From: Craspedostauros australis
Lineage: Eukaryota > Bacillariophyta > Bacillariophyceae > Mastogloiales > Achnanthaceae
Direction of reading: 5' to 3'
DNA: 64,000 nucleotides
Assembly (NCBI GenBank): GCA_026770025.1
Contig: JAMXDE010000011.1
Coordinates: 1,612,001 to 1,676,000 of the forward strand
Shown here: positions 3,784-14,919 of the stretch, one piece after another
Position numbering within the stretch: the stretch's first letter is position 1
Layout: every line of letters starts with the position of its first letter
Notes under the pieces: model-generated
What the model saw: the letters and a program-made list of their open reading frames with translations, nothing else
Database searches by the model: none
Told to the model about the DNA's origin: nothing
Translations under genes and position numbers: made by a program

Positions 3784-6588
3784 TCACTCCCCGTATTCCC
3801 GTTCCAACCGCTCCTTCGTCAACATCCCGACCAGCAAGCGCTTCCACCGTGCGTAAACACGTCGTTGGTGCTCATCGTGACTCTCCTGCAACAAATGGCT
3901 CGCCACCTCCGCGTGGGCTTCCCGCAGCAAGATCTCATTGTGTTGGTGCACCACGATGCCGCGGATGGTCGGTGCCCGGTTGCCACCAAATCCCTCAAAC
4001 CCCATCAAGCACGGCGCGTACGGGATTCCCAATTGCTTCGCCACTTTGGCGATGTTGCTTTCGTCGACGTGAACGAGGCCTGGATTCAGCAGTTCCAGTT
4101 CGATGTTTCGGAATTCGTTGATGGGCAGCCGATCGTCTGGACCAATGGGGGGCGGGGACCATGGATCGGTCTGCCAGATGGCGTAGACGTCCTCCTTACC
4201 ATCCGCCAACGGTTGTTCGGCGGCTGCGATCTCCTTGAGCCGCTGTTCCTGTGTTCCGTCGTTGTTCTGGCCGACGCCGTAGGATCGCAGTGCCTTGAAC
4301 CCATTCACGGCAGGCTTCTTGCGGGCCTTGATGCGCTTCGTCGGTTTGGACATCTCCTCCTTCCGCACCTTGCGGCCTCGGTAGGGCCATTTGTTGGCAG
4401 GGTGCAACGTGGTGACATCCGTCCGACGGTAGACCAGCTCACCTTTGAAGACGCCGCAGACCCGTTTTTTGGCATCGGGCATGAGGACTTCAGCGTTGCC
4501 CAGCAAGGATGGAATGACATAGACCGGATGTTCCTTGAATCCTTGCTTGCTTGTCGGCAACGGTTCTTTCTTGGCATGCTCCGACAGCTGCGCCTCTTCC
4601 TCGTCACCTTCGTGTTCAAGTTCATGGGCGCCGCCGTTGCTTCCGTCGTCTTCCTTTGGTTTGGGCTGGTCGTCTGAAAGATCAATGGCCTCCGAAGCTG
4701 ATTTGCCTTGTTTCCGCAGCAGCAGCGTCGACGAGGCCTTGTCTTTGGCTGGCCTGCGGTGGGATGAGCTCAAGGACTTGAGGGTTTGCTTCCACCACTT
4801 GTGCACATCCTCCTGCTCTTTGACTTTGGTCTGCTTGCCGCGCAGAACACCGATCGCCTTCATGGACTCGATGTAGCTGGATGCGTAGCGCGGGGTCACG
4901 TCCGTGAGCTTGCGCACGAGTGGTGAGGATGACTCGAACGCACCAGCATCGCCATCGCCGTTCCTCTTCGCATGCTCTACCGCCAGAGCATATGCGATTG
5001 GACGACGCTTGGATGATAATTCGGGGTTCATTTCCTGGTTGCGGAGTTCCATCTGCTGGTCCGCATTGAAGAGGATGTACTCCACCTTGCTGGGTTGGTT
5101 GAACAGGTTCCAATGAGGGTCGACGTGCACCCATTCCACGGACGATGTCATTTTGTTGGGTGATGTTGTTGATTTTGCGGTTTTGCCTTGGGCTTGCCTT
5201 TTGGAGCACAGTACTTCCACCCATGCGATGGTTGGCTTGAATGCGTGGTCGTTCTGAGACTTTGCCTGCCATGCATCGAGTGCTGGTGCTGTGGTTGCTC
5301 GCTTCTTGCCGCTCCCGTCGTCGTCGTTGTTAGTAGCTTGCCTTTTCGCTTCTGATTGCCCTGGCGCTTGCTTCCCTGCCGCCGTTCCATCATCCCTTGT
5401 CGGCCTCTTCTTCTTCTCCTTGTTGTTCCGTTTCTGCAGATCACCAAAATGAAACAAGATGTGTTGCAGATGATCTTGGACCAACATGGGATGGTTGACG
5501 TCCAAATCGCCCTTGATGGGATCGATAGACATGACGAATCGTGCGCGCCAGCACAATGCGCGGACCATGAGGGTGTATAGTTGGAGCTTGTCGTGAGTTC
5601 CCCACGGTGGATTGGGCGTTGGCATTTGCTCCAACTCCGGATCATCGTCCAAGCTCAAGGCCAGAAAGAGGCAGTAGTCTTCGGTTCGAGAAGGTATGGC
5701 GTTGAATGATGAGAAGGATGACGAGAATAGCGGTAGCAACGATGACAGCTCATCGTCGTTATCAGCATCGTTTTCGCCACCCCCTGCCTTGGATGACTTC
5801 GTCTTTCCCCCTGCCGCTGGTCGCCTTCTGCGCATTGTGGCGACGCCAGCTCGAGATGCCCTCATCCAGTGATCCCGACGACGCGCTTGCGCGTTGTTCA
5901 CGAGCCCGCAGAACCATTTGGTGAAGTCCAGAAGCTGCATCTTCGTGGGCATCGCGATCGTGGTCCATTGTTCTGGTATGAGGCTGTAGGCCACGCTCTG
6001 CAGCATGTCAGAAGAACAACGTTCGGAGACGCTGGTTGCTGTTGCTGCGAGGCACAGGAGGTGGGATCTTTGCAGCGCGGTGATGGCATGCTTCGTGCTT
6101 TGTGGCAGGTGATCAAATCGGTAAGACCGCTTGACCCGCTTCTTCGGCCTGGCATTTGCCTTGTCATCAGGTGGCCTCTTGTTGAGGTTGATTGTGATTG
6201 GTCTCAGCGAGATCATGGGTGGTCCGCCGGAAGTGCGTCCAGCTTCGTTGTCGGAAGGAAGTTTGGCCACATTGGCGCTGACGCCACCACCACCATCATT
6301 CATGCCGCCGTCACCTCCCATTCCATCCTCTGCATCCTCCCAATCAATTCCGTCCTCGTCGTCATCATTATTGCCGTCGGCGTTGGCGCCAGCGCCTCCG
6401 AAATCAAAGACTACGGCAGCCGGTTTTTTGTTTCCATCGTCACTCTCGTCGTCGCTGTCATCGCTATCGCTGTGTCCTGTTCTGCCGTATCCTCCTATGG
6501 ACTCTTTCAAATCCACGTTGGCCCAATCGGCAAACCCATCCTCTCCTGCTTCGTCTTCGTCGGATGATAGATTCCAATCAAAGCTCAT
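3784..6588 (-). CDS. RAD4: XPC/Rad4 family DNA-damage recognition protein
   Basis: Single uninterrupted frame of 934 residues, ending TGA. The N-terminal 170 residues are acidic and glycine-rich. A transglutaminase-like fold follows, with the typical stretch around 345-375 (LQLYTLMVRALCWRARFV) and WVHVDPHWNLFNQP near 485. The three beta-hairpin domains occupy about 680-890: HPVYVIPSLLGN, then VTTLHPANKWPYRGRKVR, then MGFEGFGGNRAPTIRGIVVH. This order is diagnostic of XPC/Rad4, which detects helix distortions and starts global-genome nucleotide excision repair in the nucleus. The start MSFDWNLSSDEDE is natural, and only 19 bases separate its ATG from the LTR of the neighbouring retrotransposon, so the original upstream region now lies 6.9 kb away. 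The gene has the same orientation as the element. Confidence 0.9.
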   Translation of the reverse strand: MSFDWNLSSDEDEAGEDGFADWANVDLKESIGGYGRTGHSDSDDSDDESDDGNKKPAAVVFDFGGAGANADGNNDDDEDGIDWEDAEDGMGGDGGMNDGGGGVSANVAKLPSDNEAGRTSGGPPMISLRPITINLNKRPPDDKANARPKKRVKRSYRFDHLPQSTKHAITALQRSHLLCLAATATSVSERCSSDMLQSVAYSLIPEQWTTIAMPTKMQLLDFTKWFCGLVNNAQARRRDHWMRASRAGVATMRRRRPAAGGKTKSSKAGGGENDADNDDELSSLLPLFSSSFSSFNAIPSRTEDYCLFLALSLDDDPELEQMPTPNPPWGTHDKLQLYTLMVRALCWRARFVMSIDPIKGDLDVNHPMLVQDHLQHILFHFGDLQKRNNKEKKKRPTRDDGTAAGKQAPGQSEAKRQATNNDDDGSGKKRATTAPALDAWQAKSQNDHAFKPTIAWVEVLCSKRQAQGKTAKSTTSPNKMTSSVEWVHVDPHWNLFNQPSKVEYILFNADQQMELRNQEMNPELSSKRRPIAYALAVEHAKRNGDGDAGAFESSSPLVRKLTDVTPRYASSYIESMKAIGVLRGKQTKVKEQEDVHKWWKQTLKSLSSSHRRPAKDKASSTLLLRKQGKSASEAIDLSDDQPKPKEDDGSNGGAHELEHEGDEEEAQLSEHAKKEPLPTSKQGFKEHPVYVIPSLLGNAEVLMPDAKKRVCGVFKGELVYRRTDVTTLHPANKWPYRGRKVRKEEMSKPTKRIKARKKPAVNGFKALRSYGVGQNNDGTQEQRLKEIAAAEQPLADGKEDVYAIWQTDPWSPPPIGPDDRLPINEFRNIELELLNPGLVHVDESNIAKVAKQLGIPYAPCLMGFEGFGGNRAPTIRGIVVHQHNEILLREAHAEVASHLLQESHDEHQRRVYARWKRLLVGMLTKERLEREYGE

Positions 6589-6602
6589 GGCCGGCGCAAC
6601 GT

Positions 6603-6607
6603 ATTGT
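6603..6607. repeat. Target-site duplication of the copia element, left copy
   Basis: ATTGT directly precedes the left LTR and is repeated directly after the right LTR at 13511-13515. A 5-base duplication is normal for Ty1/copia integration and defines the element ends. Confidence 0.92.
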
Positions 6608-7127
6608 TGTGATATTGGTTCCAGATGTCAGCACTGTGAGACCGGCGTGTGCAGTGGTGAGATCGTGGGCTCTGGTTTGGAGGTAAATTGGTAATCGTTA
6701 GTTGTCGATTTAGTTGGTTTGCGTTGTTGAGTTGATTGAACTCTCGGTTTATGAGATGATGACGAGATGTTGTTCTGTCAGAATGCAAGTTGCAGGGTCA
6801 GCAGCATCTCCCGTGTAATTCGTCGTGATCATCATCCTCATTCGATTTGGGTCCTCGCAATACACCGTGTTGTACTTCATTTGGTCTTGGGTTGCGATGG
6901 CACTCCGAGGTCGTGCTCGGTTGGTCGATAGTTATCCAGATCCACGATCGATCCAGAATCTTCGCCGTGTTTTGATTGAACATAACACACAAGGAACATT
7001 GTTGAAAAAATGGCGCGCATGGTTCCTGGAGTCGTGATTGATTTGAGTGAGGAACAAAATTCATTCACGACACAATTTGATCACTCTCAAGGTCACAAAG
7101 TATGCGTGTCATTGGAATATTCCCACA
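6608..7127 (-). repeat. Long terminal repeat, 3' LTR in element orientation
   Basis: 520 bases, running TGTGATATT to TTCCCACA on the plus strand, with TGTG/CACA ends. It abuts the XPC/RAD4 leader, and element transcription runs toward that gene. Short open frames inside it recur identically in the other LTR and are not genes. Confidence 0.95.
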
Positions 7128-7135
7128 CTCCCTTG
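7128..7135 (-). other. Polypurine tract of the copia element
   Basis: Read on the minus strand this is CAAGGGAG, lying between the pol stop codon (TGA, 7136-7138) and the 3' LTR. This is the expected place and composition for the plus-strand primer. Confidence 0.75.
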
Positions 7136-10100
7136 TCAACCTTGATCCCTTTGTGTGAACTTCCATCCCATAGAGAGCTCCGTGAACTTGTGGAACTTGT
7201 CGTCTGCGAGTGGTTTCGTCCAGAGGTCTGCGAGCTGGTCGTCGGTGTCGATGGCGTAGATCTCGATGAGCTTGCGATCCACGTACGATCGGAAATGGTG
7301 GTATTTGATGTTGATGTGCTTTGTTCGGGGTCGCATCTTCGGAAACTTGGCGATCTCGTAGGCGCCTGAGTTGTCCTCGAATGCATTGCAGTACACCCTG
7401 GGCTTGTACTTCTCTGGTACGATCTCCCTGGCGCACATTTCGTTGAGCAGGTTCATCATTGGAATCACGTCGCGCAACGCCGTTGATAGTGCGATCACTT
7501 CGGCTTCGGTTGTGCTCAATGCGATCTCCGTCTGCAAGCGCGATGCCCATGCGATGGGGCATCCTGCAAATCGAATCAGGTATCCAGTCCTTGATCTGGC
7601 TGTGGCTGAGTCTTCGGCTGCTGTGTCTCTGTTCCACAATCCCGCAAAGTCTGCATCGGCAAAGCATTCGAATGCCTTGTCGTTGGGGTTCAGGATGATG
7701 CCTTCGTCTCTGGTTGCCATCAGGTACCGCCCGATTAGGTTCACCGCTTGTGAGTGCGATTTCTTCGGATTGGCGCTGAATCTGGCTGCTTGATGCACGG
7801 CGTACCCGATCTCCCCGCGAGTGGATTTCTCCAGGAAGTTGAGCTTTCCGATGACCGATCGGTAGCTCCAGGTCGCGTTGTGCTCCTCGCCATTCTCGTC
7901 TGCATCCAGGATCTTCGTCGTCATTGCCGGCGTGTCCCTGGGTCTGGTGTTTGGACGAAAGTTCAGGTCCTTTACGATCTGATCGATGAGATGGGGCTGC
8001 GACAGTTTGATGCGTCCGTCCTCCAGGTGAGTGACATGCACACCCAGATAGTCCGTGAGGTTCCCTTCGTCGGTGATATTGAACCGCTGTTGCATTTGAT
8101 TGAGAAGCTTGTCAATCTCTTCTGCGCTTGGGCCTGCGAGGATGCCGTCGTCCACATACACCAGAAACATTGTCTTACCGTGGTAGTAGACGCATTCGTC
8201 GACTTTGCTCTGTGTGAATCCGATGTCGCTCAATCCCCGGTGCAGATGCTGGTTCCAGACTCGTCCGGCCTGCTTTTGGCCGTACAGGTTCTTCACCAGC
8301 TTCAGGACATAGTCCTTCGTGTCTCCATCTCCGATGCTCACTCCAACTGGTACTTCCATGTAGATAGTTGTCTCCACTTCCGCCTGAGGGTATGCGAGCA
8401 CGAAATCGATCTGCCTTGTGTGCCATTTGTGCAGGATTGAGAGGATGAGGACGAGTCTGATGGACATCCAGGTAACGACCGGGGCGTATGTCTCCCAGAA
8501 GTTCACTCCTTTGACCTGCTGGCCTCCGTGGACGTTGAGCCTTGCCTTCCACTTGTACACCTCTCTGGTCTTGATTCGGCGTTTCCGCTTCATGGACCAC
8601 ACCGATGCTACCACCTTGGTTCCCTCTGGCACTTCTGATCTCGGGACGACCTCCCAGTGGCCGTTCTCGTGGTGAGCGTTGAGCTCAGCTTGCATCGCCT
8701 CCTTGAACTTCATCCGATCCGGTTGCTTCATTGCTTGGTGATAGTACATGGTGTCTGGGTCGGCTGATGCGGCGAATGCGATCGGATCTGAGGTCTCGTT
8801 GGTGTCGAATCCTTTTCCGTTCTCGAATGTGCTTGCCACCTCGAATGCGCTGGGTAGTGCGACGACTTCGGTGTCTCCATTCTCTCTTACCTTTCTGGAT
8901 GGTGTTCGGTGCCTGTTTGATCGACGCAGTCCTGCTGACTGCTCCTGTTGATTCCTGGCTGGTGGCTCCGTGGTGGCGGTGTTGCTGGGCGCTTCGCCGA
9001 TGTTGATGTCGTCGCCCGTTGCCGCCTGTGATGCTTCGAACTCTTCGTCTCCTTCCGGGTCATCTGCGTTCGTATGCTGATTTGTTGGCGATGTTGGCGC
9101 ATCCGTGTCGGAGGACCCGCGTAACCCTTCGGTTGCGGTCACTCCCTTGGAGCGCTTGATCACTCCAGGCTTGCTGATGCCTGCCAACTGCTTCCATTGG
9201 CCATGATTGGTGCCTGTGGTACCCACCACTGTCTCAAACATGTCATCGCACTTGACGTGAAATTGCGGCGACACCAGTCCTGTCCTTGGGTTGAGGATGA
9301 GCGCCACCGATCTTGCGTGACGAGGAGAGAGTCCAAGGTAGATCCCGATCCTTGCCTTCGACATCCATTTTGGCTGTGATTGGCCATTGGCGAGTCGAGG
9401 GTTCAGGACGTACGTTGGGCATCCGAACGAATGAAAATGCTTCAGCTGGGGCTTGATTGCGGACCCAGAGAATCGTTCAATAGGTGTGATGTGATTGATC
9501 ACTGGATTCGGGGTTGCGTTCATCACCTCATTTGCCATGCGCAGAGCGTACGGCCACAGTGAAATGGATGCGGCCTCCTTCCACCTGATGTGCATGTGCA
9601 GCAGCATTGTCCGAGCTGCCTCCTGCAGATCCCTGATGCGTTTCTCCGCCACTCCGTTTTGGAAGTGGGCGTATGCGGCGCAAAAGGTGATGGTCTGGCC
9701 GGAGCGATCGACATGCGAGAGGAATTTGTTCTCTGCGAATCGACCATTGTCGGCGTGATAGTGCCGAATCGTCACTCCGTAGGTCTTGGCGTATGCCTCG
9801 AATGCTTGTTTGGCATGCAGGGTTTCTTCGGCGTTGGTGCTCTTCTGAAGGTGCACGTAGCTGAATCGACTGTGATGGTCAGTGAAAATGGTGGCTGCGC
9901 GGTACCGCTGGGTAGTCAGCCTGCCTTTGATCTGTCCGATGAACCCCTGTGTTGGTGACTCCATCTGGTCCACCGACACACAGTCTCCAGGCCGATTGAT
10001 TGGCACGAGTTTGCTCACTTGCTGATTGCCTCCCTTGGTCCGCCATGGCCGTCTGGTTGCCTTTCCATACTCACATGATGCGCATGCGGGCAGTTGGCAG

Positions 10101-11224
10101 TCTCGGAACTTCGCAGGGATCTCTCCCTTGGAAGCCATGGTCCTCATCTTGTTGAAGGATACATGCCCAAGCTTGTAGTGCAGTCGGAGCATGTCGGCTG
10201 TTGGAGTAGAGCTGTACTCCGAGGTAGCATCGATGGGTGCTCTGTAGGGCACATCCCTGAAGTCGATCTGCGTAGGCTCCTTGCTGAGTTGGTCCTCCGC
10301 TCCGCTGGTGGTGATTGCTTGCTCACTCTGGTTGATGCTCCCGTCATCATCGTCCATTACCACTGACTCCTCGTCGTCGCTGACCAGATTGGCTGCGTCC
10401 ATTGGTTCGGTAGGAGTGATTTCCTGCACTGAATTTGTCAAGCAGTACTTCCTGAATCCATTGTAACCCGATGACGATCTGATCATGCCGATGTTGGATG
10501 ACGTGAGTGGTATGGATCGTCGGTGCTTGCGACGGTCCCAAAAGATCTCCATTCTGTTGCCGAGGGTGGTACATCCGGTTCCCTCAAGATCCTTGCTGCA
10601 TTGCGCCCAGTGTTGTGGGCAGAGCAGTCGGAATGGAAGGCTGGGCTCATAGATCACTTTGTCGAGCTCGATGATGTGCCGGTTTCCGCGGTCGTCCTCG
10701 ATCTTCCATCTTACCTTTCCTTGCAGGTTCACCTTCCGACTCCCAACTCCCTTCACGACCTTGTCGATTTTCGTAGGTTCTCCGATGAAGTCATCCTTGC
10801 TGTTGGTGAATGACGTGGATGCACAGTTGTCAACCGCCATCTGAAACGAGTCTGAATCGAACCGGGCGAGCGGCATTGCGAATGTGTCGTCTGTCTCCGT
10901 GTCTGCGGCTGCCCAGAGATGTCGCATTGTTCTTGTGCGCCATCCGGACTTTCGTCCAATCCTGGGTGGCCTGATTCCGTTGCCGTGCGCGTAGTATCGC
11001 CGGCACTTGTGGTGGTTTGGTCGCCATCTGGTGTGTTTGCGTGGGTGTCCTTGGATTAGCGCGATGCGCCAAGCTGTCCACGTGACCAGAGCAACCACCA
11101 CCATAGCCATTCCTGACTCCTCATCTCCGTGCACGAAGGCGGCAACGCAGATGGCTGTCAGTAACGCCATGATGAGTGGCCTGCAGAGGGTGAGCAACTG
11201 TGCCCACACCCTCCGGCCGATCAT
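7136..11224 (-). CDS. pol: Copia Pol: protease, integrase, reverse transcriptase, RNase H
   Basis: The frame has 1362 codons. Protease has a VDNCASTSF active-site region near residue 130. The integrase zinc finger (HHCC) starts at HYKLGHVSFNKM near 355, and the integrase core has Asp in FTDHHSRFSYVH, Asp in HYHADNGRF and Glu in GVAEKRIRDL (about 450-530). Reverse transcriptase follows, with its catalytic YVDDGILAG near 1020, and RNase H has CFADADFAG near 1195 and STTEAEVIALS after it. The N-terminal 60 residues include two strongly hydrophobic stretches, which is unusual for Pol. The frame begins directly after the gag UGA and is in phase with gag, so expression by UGA readthrough or by reinitiation at the adjoining ATG is likely. 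All catalytic motifs look intact. Confidence 0.95.
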   Translation of the reverse strand: MIGRRVWAQLLTLCRPLIMALLTAICVAAFVHGDEESGMAMVVVALVTWTAWRIALIQGHPRKHTRWRPNHHKCRRYYAHGNGIRPPRIGRKSGWRTRTMRHLWAAADTETDDTFAMPLARFDSDSFQMAVDNCASTSFTNSKDDFIGEPTKIDKVVKGVGSRKVNLQGKVRWKIEDDRGNRHIIELDKVIYEPSLPFRLLCPQHWAQCSKDLEGTGCTTLGNRMEIFWDRRKHRRSIPLTSSNIGMIRSSSGYNGFRKYCLTNSVQEITPTEPMDAANLVSDDEESVVMDDDDGSINQSEQAITTSGAEDQLSKEPTQIDFRDVPYRAPIDATSEYSSTPTADMLRLHYKLGHVSFNKMRTMASKGEIPAKFRDCQLPACASCEYGKATRRPWRTKGGNQQVSKLVPINRPGDCVSVDQMESPTQGFIGQIKGRLTTQRYRAATIFTDHHSRFSYVHLQKSTNAEETLHAKQAFEAYAKTYGVTIRHYHADNGRFAENKFLSHVDRSGQTITFCAAYAHFQNGVAEKRIRDLQEAARTMLLHMHIRWKEAASISLWPYALRMANEVMNATPNPVINHITPIERFSGSAIKPQLKHFHSFGCPTYVLNPRLANGQSQPKWMSKARIGIYLGLSPRHARSVALILNPRTGLVSPQFHVKCDDMFETVVGTTGTNHGQWKQLAGISKPGVIKRSKGVTATEGLRGSSDTDAPTSPTNQHTNADDPEGDEEFEASQAATGDDINIGEAPSNTATTEPPARNQQEQSAGLRRSNRHRTPSRKVRENGDTEVVALPSAFEVASTFENGKGFDTNETSDPIAFAASADPDTMYYHQAMKQPDRMKFKEAMQAELNAHHENGHWEVVPRSEVPEGTKVVASVWSMKRKRRIKTREVYKWKARLNVHGGQQVKGVNFWETYAPVVTWMSIRLVLILSILHKWHTRQIDFVLAYPQAEVETTIYMEVPVGVSIGDGDTKDYVLKLVKNLYGQKQAGRVWNQHLHRGLSDIGFTQSKVDECVYYHGKTMFLVYVDDGILAGPSAEEIDKLLNQMQQRFNITDEGNLTDYLGVHVTHLEDGRIKLSQPHLIDQIVKDLNFRPNTRPRDTPAMTTKILDADENGEEHNATWSYRSVIGKLNFLEKSTRGEIGYAVHQAARFSANPKKSHSQAVNLIGRYLMATRDEGIILNPNDKAFECFADADFAGLWNRDTAAEDSATARSRTGYLIRFAGCPIAWASRLQTEIALSTTEAEVIALSTALRDVIPMMNLLNEMCAREIVPEKYKPRVYCNAFEDNSGAYEIAKFPKMRPRTKHINIKYHHFRSYVDRKLIEIYAIDTDDQLADLWTKPLADDKFHKFTELSMGWKFTQRDQG

Positions 11225-12913
11225 TCAGTACTCCTCTTCGGCCACATGTGGCATGGCCACCGTTGGCTTGTTGCTGGAAGTACCATCTCCTCCTGATTTG
11301 TCAGGCTTCCCATCCGAATTGACCCCTCCCTTGAGGGCCTTGCACTCCGATGGCTTGTGCCGGACCCACTTGCCGTTGGTTCCGTGGTTGGGGCACCAGT
11401 GGACATCTTTTCCACTCGGATCCTGCTTGGTCTTGGGCTCTCCGCTGGCCGGTGGTTGATAGAACCATGGGGTGTCCCCAGATCCTCCTTTCTTTCCGTC
11501 CTTCTCTTTGCCCTTCTTGCCCTTCTTGCCCTTGCCGTCCTTGCTGTCCTTGCCCTTCTTTCCGTTGCCGCCCTTGTTGGCTTTCTTCATCTTCTCGAGT
11601 TCTGCCGTCAGCGCCACGATGTGTTTCTGGTCCTCTGTCTGGGCCTTCCACGTTCCGCGCTCCACCATGGTCTTGTATTTCTTGTCTACCAGATCCATGA
11701 GTTCGTCGGCGTCAATCGCGATCCCTTCGTTGTGCTGGTCCTCCTTGCTTTCGATGTACCGGCGGAAGGTCTCATCGTTCACCTGCTTGTAGGCGTCGAA
11801 GAGGTAGATCAGCAGGTCGTGGGTGACTTGTCCACGTGCCGTCAATCCGTTGCGTTGCAATTTTGCATACTCGTTGAGTTCGGTGATGTTGTCCGAGAGA
11901 TCGCCGATCTTGCTTGGCAGGTTGGCCAGGTTGCTTCGCAGCATGCTGATGGTTGCGTTGGTGTTGACCAATGACTTCTCCATCAGGACCTTGAACATCA
12001 ACAGACCATCATGGACTTTTCCTTCGGCTGTGCTCAGGGAGTACTTCTCTGACTCCAGCTGCATGCGGGACCTTGCGTCTTGCGTGAGGGACTCCTGAAT
12101 GCATTTTGCGATCTGCATTGCGTTCTGGGCGTGCCTGGTCTGTCGGCTAGAGTATCCTTCGGCGTATGCCAGAACCTCCTTGTAGCTGATTGTGCTATGT
12201 TCGAGGAACAGGTTTCGCTTTTCGCCGCGGATGTTGATGATGATGGTTTGGAGCCAGTTGAACTCCATTGCTCGGGCGTTGAGGAGATTGGTGAACTTGT
12301 GTACAAGGTTCGAGGTCATGTCGAACTCCACTGGGAGTGACTCGACGGCCTTGTAGTACAGCTTCGCCACAGATGTCTTGCTGTAGTCGAGCAGCCGATT
12401 GTGGATGCGAGCTGGCGTCAAAGCGTACTGGAATGCAGGCTGTGCATCCACTACCTCTTCATCGTCCTCTTCATCGTCCTCATCGTCGCCCCCACCGTCT
12501 CCTCCGAAGTTGTCGAAGAAGGGATCGTCCTCTTCGTACGGGTCGCCCCCGCCTCCGCCATCTCCTCCGCCGTCCCCGCCGCCGTTGCCTCCTGGGTTGG
12601 TGTTGCCCTGTGGAACGTTCTGAGCGGGTGGCTTCAGGTTGCCTTGGTTGGTTGCCATGGCGTTTGGGTTGTTGTCGCCTGGGTTGGACGGTTGGTTGCT
12701 GGCTGCGGCTTGATTGCCCGCAGTGCCTCGGCCTGCAGCTGTGTTGGGTGCGGCGCTCGTGTTGGCAGCTGTGTTGGCTGCGGTGCTGGATTGTCTCGCT
12801 CTTGAGCGAGTTGTTGCTGTGGCGACCATGATTCCGTCCAGTTGGTTTGACCAGTCGTTGAATAGGTACACTTGATTGTTTGTGGGGCCTGGAGACGAGA
12901 TTGTGGATTGCAA
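11225..12913 (-). CDS. gag: Copia Gag polyprotein
   Basis: 562 residues. The N-terminal 150 residues are low complexity (Ala/Asn/Pro, then a Gly/Asp-rich stretch and an acidic run), followed by a helical capsid-like region (about 160-430) and a Lys/Gly-rich basic stretch near 440-475. A zinc-knuckle-like motif lies near 510-530: WCPNHGTNGKWVRHKPSEC, with spacing C-x2-H-x8-H-x4-C instead of the usual C-x2-C-x4-H-x4-C. The frame ends at a TGA followed at once, in the same frame, by the pol ATG. An internal ATG 27 codons downstream is another possible start. The identity rests on position in the element, composition and the knuckle. Confidence 0.85.
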   Translation of the reverse strand: MQSTISSPGPTNNQVYLFNDWSNQLDGIMVATATTRSRARQSSTAANTAANTSAAPNTAAGRGTAGNQAAASNQPSNPGDNNPNAMATNQGNLKPPAQNVPQGNTNPGGNGGGDGGGDGGGGGDPYEEDDPFFDNFGGDGGGDDEDDEEDDEEVVDAQPAFQYALTPARIHNRLLDYSKTSVAKLYYKAVESLPVEFDMTSNLVHKFTNLLNARAMEFNWLQTIIINIRGEKRNLFLEHSTISYKEVLAYAEGYSSRQTRHAQNAMQIAKCIQESLTQDARSRMQLESEKYSLSTAEGKVHDGLLMFKVLMEKSLVNTNATISMLRSNLANLPSKIGDLSDNITELNEYAKLQRNGLTARGQVTHDLLIYLFDAYKQVNDETFRRYIESKEDQHNEGIAIDADELMDLVDKKYKTMVERGTWKAQTEDQKHIVALTAELEKMKKANKGGNGKKGKDSKDGKGKKGKKGKEKDGKKGGSGDTPWFYQPPASGEPKTKQDPSGKDVHWCPNHGTNGKWVRHKPSECKALKGGVNSDGKPDKSGGDGTSSNKPTVAMPHVAEEEY

Positions 12914-12972
12914 TGTGTTGTCGTGTCCTGGACCTGCAGTAGAATAGCGCTACGAGAGGTGACTTGCCTTGA

Positions 12973-12990
12973 CGTTGCGCAGAGGAAGCG
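12973..12990 (-). other. Primer-binding site of the copia element (half-tRNA type)
   Basis: The 18 plus-strand bases directly before the right LTR read CGTTGCGCAGAGGAAGCG. They resemble the D-arm of eukaryotic initiator tRNA-Met (GCGCAGCGGAAGCG in many species). The element RNA is therefore complementary to an internal tRNA segment, not to a CCA end. Copia of Drosophila primes in this way from a 5' half of initiator tRNA-Met. The match is from memory of the tRNA consensus. Confidence 0.6.
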
Positions 12991-13510
12991 TGTGATATTG
13001 GTTCCAGATGTCAGCACTGTGAGACCGGCGTGTGCAGTGGTGAGATCGTGGGCTCTGGTTTGGAGGTAAATTGGTAATCGTTAGTTGTCGATTTAGTTGG
13101 TTTGCGTTGTTGAGTTGATTGAACTCTCGGTTTATGAGATGATGACGAGATGTTGTTCTGTCAGAATGCAAGTTGCAGGGTCAGCAGCATCTCCCGTGTA
13201 ATTCGTCGTGATCATCATCCTCATTCGATTTGGGTCCTCGCAATACACCGTGTTGTACTTCATTTGGTCTTGGGTTGCGATGGCACTCCGAGGTCGTGCT
13301 CGGTTGGTCGATAGTTATCCAGATCCACGATCGATCCAGAATCTTCGCCGTGTTTTGATTGAACATAACACACAAGGAACATTGTTGAAAAAATGGCGCG
13401 CATGGTTCCTGGAGTCGTGATTGATTTGAGTGAGGAACAAAATTCATTCACGACACAATTTGATCACTCTCAAGGTCACAAAGTATGCGTGTCATTGGAA
13501 TATTCCCACA
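12991..13510 (-). repeat. Long terminal repeat, 5' LTR in element orientation
   Basis: 520 bases, no visible difference from 6608-7127, including all short open frames inside it. It should hold the element promoter. It is followed by the second ATTGT duplication. Confidence 0.95.
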
Positions 13511-13515
13511 ATTGT
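13511..13515. repeat. Target-site duplication of the copia element, right copy
   Basis: ATTGT directly after the right LTR, matching 6603-6607. Confidence 0.92.
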
Positions 13516-14210
13516 GGATGAATGGCACTCAAATCCAAATCGACAGCAAATAAGTGAAGCGGAGGCTTTCTGGTGTGCGTTTCCGGCTTGGCACCTGTCG
13601 ACCATCTCAATCGTGTGTCTGCTTTCCGTCCATGAACGAAGGGCGAGACATGCAGATGGAGAAACGCCAAAAGAGACGCAGCCAGGGAACAAAAGGGAAG
13701 CGGCGCTCCTCTCTCCGTCGCTTGTCGGGTGGATTGGCTGTCTGGGTGGCCTCACAGGCTCTTCTCTTGGGGTTAGTTCATCACGGACATCGATGGAGGT
13801 GGTTCGTCCATCAAGTTCTCGGAGCGTTTGGCCAAACGTGTGCCGAATGCTGAATTTATTTTTCCGCAGCTCCCAGATTGCTGTGCAGAAAGTCAAGGGA
13901 GATACAATGCTGACGTCAACAGTGACTCAGTATGATGTGTCGTATTTCGTGACTCGAAATGCCCAAACCAAGACCAACAAACAAGTCGCTGAAGAATGTT
14001 CACGAAACGTGATGATGGTGGATGGTGGATGGTGTTGGGAACGCACAACCACCACTGCAGGGAGCGCAAGCGAACAAGGAGATCTTCACTGAGACGCCAA
14101 GCGGAAGATCCCAAACAACCGAATTGCAACAAGGCCAAACCAAGTGAAATCCAACCGAAAGGTGCAAGAGCAACAGCAACGACAATAAAAACACAGAGAA
14201 GGAAGCCAAG
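13516..14210. other. Original XPC/RAD4-glutaredoxin divergent spacer
   Basis: Before the copia insertion this stretch was the head-to-head spacer between XPC/RAD4 and the glutaredoxin gene. It should hold the glutaredoxin promoter and the displaced native promoter of XPC/RAD4. Open frames crossing it show no protein character and no repeat was seen. Confidence 0.55.
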
Positions 14211-14919
14211 ATGTTTTCCAGTGTAGCCCGCGTGACATCCCGCCGATTGGCAGCCGGCCGCAGCATTCCTTCCGCTGTGGCCACGACGCAGTTCGGTGTG
14301 CGCTTCTTTTCGGACGGATCCCACGATGACTTCGCGCCAAAGCGCAAGCCTGTGGCCGATGAGGATCAGGCAATCAAGATGATCGATGTGAGTTGATGTT
14401 CTTTCTCTTATACATTCTTGCATTATGCTTGATCTGCATCCGTCCATCAATCTTTGGCATTGGCGACGTCGATGGTCTTCATGGACACCCCGACATACGA
14501 GGACCCGATCATCCATTCAGCTCATTTCCATTTCCTCACTCTTCCTCTCTTTCTCACCCTTCCAACCGACTCAACCCGACACTACATAACACAACGCGAT
14601 ACGACAGGACCACGTCAAGAGCAACCCGGTCATGCTTTACATGAAGGGCAATCCATCCATGCCAATGTGCGGCTTCTCGTCCACCGTCGTTCAGATTCTC
14701 AAGAAGGAAGGCGTCGACTTCAGCAGCGTCAATGTCTTGGACTATCCGCAGATTCGGGAAGGCGTCAAGAAGTACAGCGAGTGGCCCACCATACCACAGC
14801 TCTATGTCAATGGAGAATTCATCGGTGGATGTGATATCATTACGCAGATGCATGAGAATGGTGAACTAAAAGAGGTCTTCGAAGAAGTCGGCAGTGGTGA
14901 GAAGGAGCAGTCGAAATAA
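14211..14919 (+). CDS. GRX5: Mitochondrial monothiol (CGFS) glutaredoxin, Grx5-like
   Basis: Exons 14211-14387 and 14608-14919 are joined in phase 0 (GTGAGT donor, ACGACAG acceptor; 220-base intron) and give 162 residues. The N-terminus is a clear mitochondrial presequence (MFSSVARVTSRRLAAGRSIP, then VRFFSD as a likely cleavage region). The glutaredoxin fold begins at HVKSNPVMLYMKG, and the active site PMCGFS has its single cysteine near residue 80; YSEWPTIPQLYVNGEFIGGCD is the glutathione-binding end. Grx5 hands over [2Fe-2S] clusters in the mitochondrial ISC pathway. The length and the lone-cysteine site fit this class well. The copia element and XPC/RAD4 are its upstream neighbours. Confidence 0.93.

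Follow-up and report, generated by a model that had tools for sequence, protein, structure and literature searches.

The window analysed here comprises 64,000 nt of the genome of the diatom Craspedostauros australis, in which a single unbroken ORF of 934 aa occupies positions 6588-3784 on the minus strand. This ORF was assessed by Pfam, PDB and genome searches. The BHD_1 and BHD_3 domains scored over their Pfam cut-offs, while BHD_2, at 28.4 bits, fell short of the 33.5 bits required. Human XPC in PDB matched the ORF at E 3.4e-27 with the best stretch at residues 666-933, and yeast Rad4 also matched, more weakly than human XPC. For the transglutaminase-like part, human XPC residues 152-269 gave a weak alignment (i-Evalue 0.15), and a Pfam search at E 0.001 gave no match for this domain. 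Judged by these matches, the ORF is very probably a genuine XPC/RAD4. It was the one match to XPC/RAD4 in the genome at E 0.001, and a search of the assembly for a paralogue or a second haplotype of the locus found none; since the assembly holds a single copy of the locus, an empty allele cannot be seen in it.

A Copia element lies directly upstream of this gene at positions 6608-13510, also on the minus strand. Its two LTRs are direct repeats of 520 nt with TG...CA ends, the 3′ LTR at 6608-7127 and the 5′ LTR at 12991-13510, and they are identical at 520/520 positions. Sequence comparison identified a short target site duplication, ATTGT, at 6603-6607 on the 3′ LTR side and at 13511-13515 on the 5′ LTR side. 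The original prediction had placed a copia element in the orientation of XPC/RAD4 and ending 19 nt before its ATG, and this was confirmed, with the LTR followed by a spacer at 6589-6607 and the ATG at 6588; the interval first singled out, 6588-7127, corresponds to the LTR, the 19 nt and one base of the ATG. The further claim that the 3′ LTR is the only DNA next to the repair gene is right for the LTR and overlooks the intervening 19 nt, made up of the 5-nt target duplication and a 14-nt remnant of native leader.

Within the element, a pol ORF of 1362 aa (7136-11224, minus strand) contained an RVT_2 reverse transcriptase at residues 857-1099 (151.9 bits, cut-off 31.6), located downstream of integrase-region domains as in Ty1/Copia elements. 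These were an SH3-like domain at 590-660 (30.6 bits, cut-off 27) and a GAG-pre-integrase domain at 339-388, which at 28.3 bits was 0.1 under its cut-off of 28.4; no integrase-core family was found in pol by the Pfam search at E 0.001. The ORF in the gag position (11225-12829, minus strand) has 534 aa from its ATG, and its longer form starting at TTG (11225-12913) gave no Pfam match. A candidate primer binding site adjoins the 5′ LTR at 12977-12990 (minus strand) and can pair with nt 10-23 of the initiator-like tRNA-Met encoded in this genome. Together with two nucleotides of the LTR end the complementarity covers 16 nt (12977-12992) against tRNA-Met nt 10-25, an internal rather than a 3′-end match, which suggests that a tRNA fragment serves as the putative primer. 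The gag and pol ORFs share one frame and are split by a single TGA followed by an ATG (11222-11227, minus strand), so that pol may be made by stop read-through or re-initiation. Of 17 related loci, 12 carried this junction as an exact 18-nt string; the string was missed in four loci at 78-81% identity and in L063, which carries a shorter 15-nt junction string.

On the far side of the element, the native upstream region of XPC/RAD4 extends from 13516 to 14210, moved off by 6.9 kb as had been predicted. The 700 nt at 13511-14210 matched only themselves in the genome and are thus single-copy. These approximately 700 nt of native DNA lead to a divergent gene of at least two exons on the plus strand (14211-14916), the first placed by eye from 14211 and the second, at about 14605-14916, encoding a glutaredoxin domain with a CGFS stretch. 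XPC/RAD4 and the divergent gene probably once had one common intergenic control region. The insertion leaves this region beside the glutaredoxin gene and 6.9 kb away from XPC/RAD4, a displacement from which we infer a loss of its function for the repair gene.

An upstream coding exon beyond the element had been named in advance as grounds for rejecting the prediction, and none was seen. With the element removed, the frame upstream of the XPC/RAD4 start is open for 85 codons with no in-frame ATG before a stop, and it scored as non-coding at -0.046 per codon, whereas codons 1-88 of the ORF scored 0.28 and the segments after them 0.04-0.27, which is a mild test because the codon table was trained on the long ORFs of the window, including XPC. 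The next in-frame methionine after the start is residue 90. Nor does the alignment with human XPC call for an exon further upstream: the weak N-terminal part of that alignment starts at residue 152 in the human protein and at residue 120 in the ORF.

We then characterized the family to which the element belongs. As 40 of 63 candidate LTR matches were scored in the genome search, copy numbers are lower bounds. The gag-pol junction region matched 13 places at 95% identity or more, including 11 at 100%. Among 27 sites examined, 13 carried LTRs at both ends, with 14.9 kb between the two LTRs at site o, and 14 were single LTRs or fragments. A 5-nt duplication was present at 21 of the 27 sites; the six exceptions comprised one full element, b, together with u, v, w, x and y, which are fragments or diverged copies. 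The family therefore integrates with such duplications, which makes an assembly error at the junction upstream of XPC/RAD4 unlikely. Seven of the 23 other aligned LTRs were letter-identical to the LTR beside XPC/RAD4, in a comparison that left out site c (a partial LTR, 100% identical in the genome search) and the fragments x and y. For Phaeodactylum tricornutum, 4.77e-10 changes per site per generation have been reported (PMC6604790). At that rate, zero differences in 520 nt set a 95% upper limit of about 6 million generations on the age of the LTR pair, a limit that borrows the rate of another species and ignores gene conversion. At site g (G000:C12:1018505-1025407; L023, L024), a copy was found 12 nt inside a 593-codon ORF in the same orientation. 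Two diverged LTRs, L044 (G000:C44:502401-502910) and L045 (C42:173258-173767), stood at 87% identity; over the stretches compared, their 3′ flanks were identical and their 5′ flanks near-identical, possibly by segmental duplication.

The positions of the 27 insertions relative to genes were compared with random positions from the same flanks and the window, a control that is not a clean genome sample. A strict set of 50 gene-like ORFs in 212,672 host bases was used, which omits ORFs truncated where a flank ends, among them the ones that lie 219-641 nt downstream at sites b, s and t. Nine of the 27 insertions were inside gene-like ORFs versus a random expectation of 0.396 (P 0.32), and three lay upstream of a start at a distance of 700 nt or less versus 0.129 (P 0.69), so that a target preference for gene starts was unsupported at 27 sites. 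Chance would put at least one site in the 20 nt preceding a gene-like ATG in about 11% of 27-site samples, and in 6% if a matching orientation is required. Since the XPC/RAD4 site was picked after being seen, chance accounts adequately for the landing place; random integration by a family active in the recent past explains its location, which need not be selected.

The LTR is upstream of XPC/RAD4, close to it at 19 nt and on the same strand, which is the arrangement expected for LTR co-option. Its 3′ part (nt 324-520; 6608-6804, minus strand) is free of ATG and rich in A and C (33% A, 34% C, 14% G). From LTR nt 324 to the gag ATG there was no ATG in 358 nt, with 4.1 expected from dinucleotide shuffles (P 0.0045), and from LTR nt 324 to the XPC ATG there was none in 216 nt, with 3.3 expected (P 0.0115); the length of the ATG-free run also exceeded that in shuffles before gag (P 0.0002) and before XPC (P 0.0018). 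The gag and XPC tests view one and the same LTR stretch and are not independent. By comparison, LTR nt 1-323 contained 10 ATGs versus 11.2 expected. The supposed leader was ATG-free in 21 of 24 aligned LTRs and had one ATG in the other three. Two 40-nt bins, LTR nt 321-360 and 441-480, changed least, with four differences each summed over the diverged LTRs v and z, versus a mean of 14.8 per bin (Poisson P 0.001, or 0.0125 after correction for 13 bins).

Upstream regions of host genes have a similar character. After removal of 9 of the 50 ORFs with less than 300 nt upstream, the last 100 nt before the start of the remaining 41 gene-like ORFs contained about 30% A and 29% C, a composition in which the LTR part leans further, and 0.78 ATGs per 100 nt versus 1.66-1.88 further up. 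An upstream ATG-free run of at least 218 nt was found for 11 of the 41 ORFs, and the predicted XPC leader is therefore not odd for the host. With the element removed, the closest upstream ATG of XPC/RAD4 is at -109. Searches of the LTR and the adjoining 19 nt on this strand gave no TATA and no AATAAA, and one CATAAA at LTR nt 375, and the initiator-like motifs YCANTYY and CATTYY showed no clear enrichment upstream of the 41 host ORFs; a core promoter was therefore not identified. The predicted leader folds somewhat better than its shuffles (z -2.09, with 5 of 200 shuffles folding as well), and this folding gives scanning no help. Taken on its ATG-free, A/C-rich 3′ part, a role of the LTR as promoter and leader is plausible, and we infer that transcription of the element may start near LTR nt 324-365 with the remainder as leader.

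Two GAANNTTC heat-shock-type dimers were also noticed in the LTR, at nt 6-13 (7115-7122) and nt 165-172 (6956-6963), both on the minus strand. At least one GAANNTTC occurred in 12.5% of mononucleotide shuffles of the LTR. On the alignment inspected by eye, the first dimer was kept in v, the second was kept in neither v nor z, and z had neither of them. As regulatory evidence they were set aside as a post hoc lead that is not fully kept in diverged LTRs and may be due to chance.

Comparable arrangements are known in plants and diatoms. Butelli et al. in 2012 reportedly described Tcs1, a Copia-like element upstream of the MYB gene Ruby in blood orange. According to a review (PMC5056178), the 3′ LTR of Tcs1 supplies the transcription start of Ruby and its cold response in orange. 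As at XPC/RAD4, a retroelement sits in the promoter region of a gene with its 3′ LTR nearest to that gene, and solo-LTR formation at Tcs1 is paralleled by the single LTRs with duplications in the Copia family here. In contrast to Ruby, where expression and cold response were demonstrated, a role of the LTR at XPC/RAD4 is predicted from sequence; the site also differs in involving a diatom DNA-repair gene and an LTR within the leader, 19 nt from the ATG. In P. tricornutum, the 163-bp LTR of the CoDi element Blackbeard alone drives GUS under nitrate limitation, and Blackbeard insertions are polymorphic between accessions, including a heterozygous insertion with an empty allele, as reported by Maumus et al. 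2009 (PMC2806351). The earlier claim that copia LTRs of diatoms respond to stress holds for Blackbeard in the LTR-GUS experiment under nitrate limitation and would be an extrapolation for the family here. Both are diatom LTR elements that we liken by their features rather than by kinship, and their LTRs differ in length (163 bp versus 520 nt beside XPC/RAD4). The insertion sites newly cloned in that study were all outside genes (PMC2806351), whereas 9 of 27 were in gene-like ORFs here. The study further describes the element PtC34, inserted upstream of the uroporphyrinogen-III synthase gene at a distance of 82 bp from its 5′ UTR in P. tricornutum accessions Pt6-7-8 (PMC2806351), again a diatom retroelement very near the 5′ end of a housekeeping gene, although PtC34 is outside the 5′ UTR and the element here is 19 nt from an ATG. 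Our literature search found no paper joining diatom, XPC, RAD4 and nucleotide excision repair, and a search for diatom LTR insertion, promoter and DNA repair gave nothing related.

These observations are best explained if a member of a young Copia family integrated, probably regardless of genes, within the short 5′ leader of XPC/RAD4 and oriented like it, and so parted XPC/RAD4 from the native promoter region common to the divergent glutaredoxin gene. The 3′ LTR would then most likely drive some or all of the transcription on the inserted allele, with a predicted start at about 6763-6804 and a leader of about 156-197 nt of LTR plus 19 nt, in which the XPC ATG would be the first ATG. We give a probability of roughly 0.5 to the reading that the insertion cuts XPC/RAD4 from its promoter and that the LTR at least partly substitutes for it. 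Expression level and regulation might in that event be set by the element instead of by the repair gene, which is speculative. It is improbable that the 3′ LTR has fully captured transcription of the only XPC/RAD4 gene, such that damage recognition in nucleotide excision repair on this allele obeys the regulation of the element, stress activation being one example, and may vary among strains or alleles with or without the insertion; a stress or UV control of XPC/RAD4 is speculation.

The chief competitor to substitution by the LTR is a null or hypomorphic allele, in which the promoter is lost, the LTR is silent or terminating, and the loss is tolerated via an empty allele or another repair route. 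We regard this as possible and clearly the less probable of the two. The nine insertions inside gene-like ORFs indicate that probably damaging insertions are present in the assembly; these would presumably be tolerated as heterozygotes, and heterozygous insertions are on record in P. tricornutum (Maumus et al.; PMC2806351). The identical LTRs imply that selection has had little time to act on a reduced function. In addition, the element's own transcripts have to terminate in the 3′ LTR, so read-out could be cut short, and silencing of the element may occur and turn the allele off. A Piwi-domain family gave two genome matches, one of them with two internal stops, and small-RNA silencing may therefore exist. 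Set against a reduced function are the intact ORF and the finding of XPC/RAD4 as the only copy, although a young insertion would leave the ORF intact anyway.

That the insertion has little effect appears improbable. Transcription would in this case start in or upstream of the displaced region with the 6.9-kb element spliced out, or local DNA would suffice, and the untouched ATG context and 14 nt of native leader are compatible with it. Diatom genomes are compact, however, and a 6.9-kb intron would be large for one; nor was an upstream coding exon found. An assembly artefact, with the element wrongly joined at this site, would draw on the copies with identical LTRs elsewhere in the genome, but the element is bounded by a perfect 5-nt duplication, its upstream flank is single-copy and 21 of the 27 sites carry such a duplication, and we consider it very improbable. 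Substitution by the LTR would make the XPC/RAD4 site a candidate new instance of LTR capture, an established kind of event. If read-out from the LTR is real, the locus offers a concrete, testable diatom case of LTR rewiring of a core DNA-repair gene by a family that may be still polymorphic; if it is not, the insertion is one among many recent ones, and illustrates how easily the reading of a single genome makes a random hit a regulatory story.

Silicon transporters, by which the host can be recognized as a diatom, are a family typical of diatoms. In the same genome, the silicon transporter family PF03842 gave 88 matches (e.g. C2:977655-979259 and C9:2024068-2025684), a count of SIT genes that looks unusually large when taken by itself. 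Thirty-two of the 88 matches spanned at least 480 of the 513 profile positions, as counted by eye, and none of 14 control genomes gave a match to PF03842 over the cut-off.
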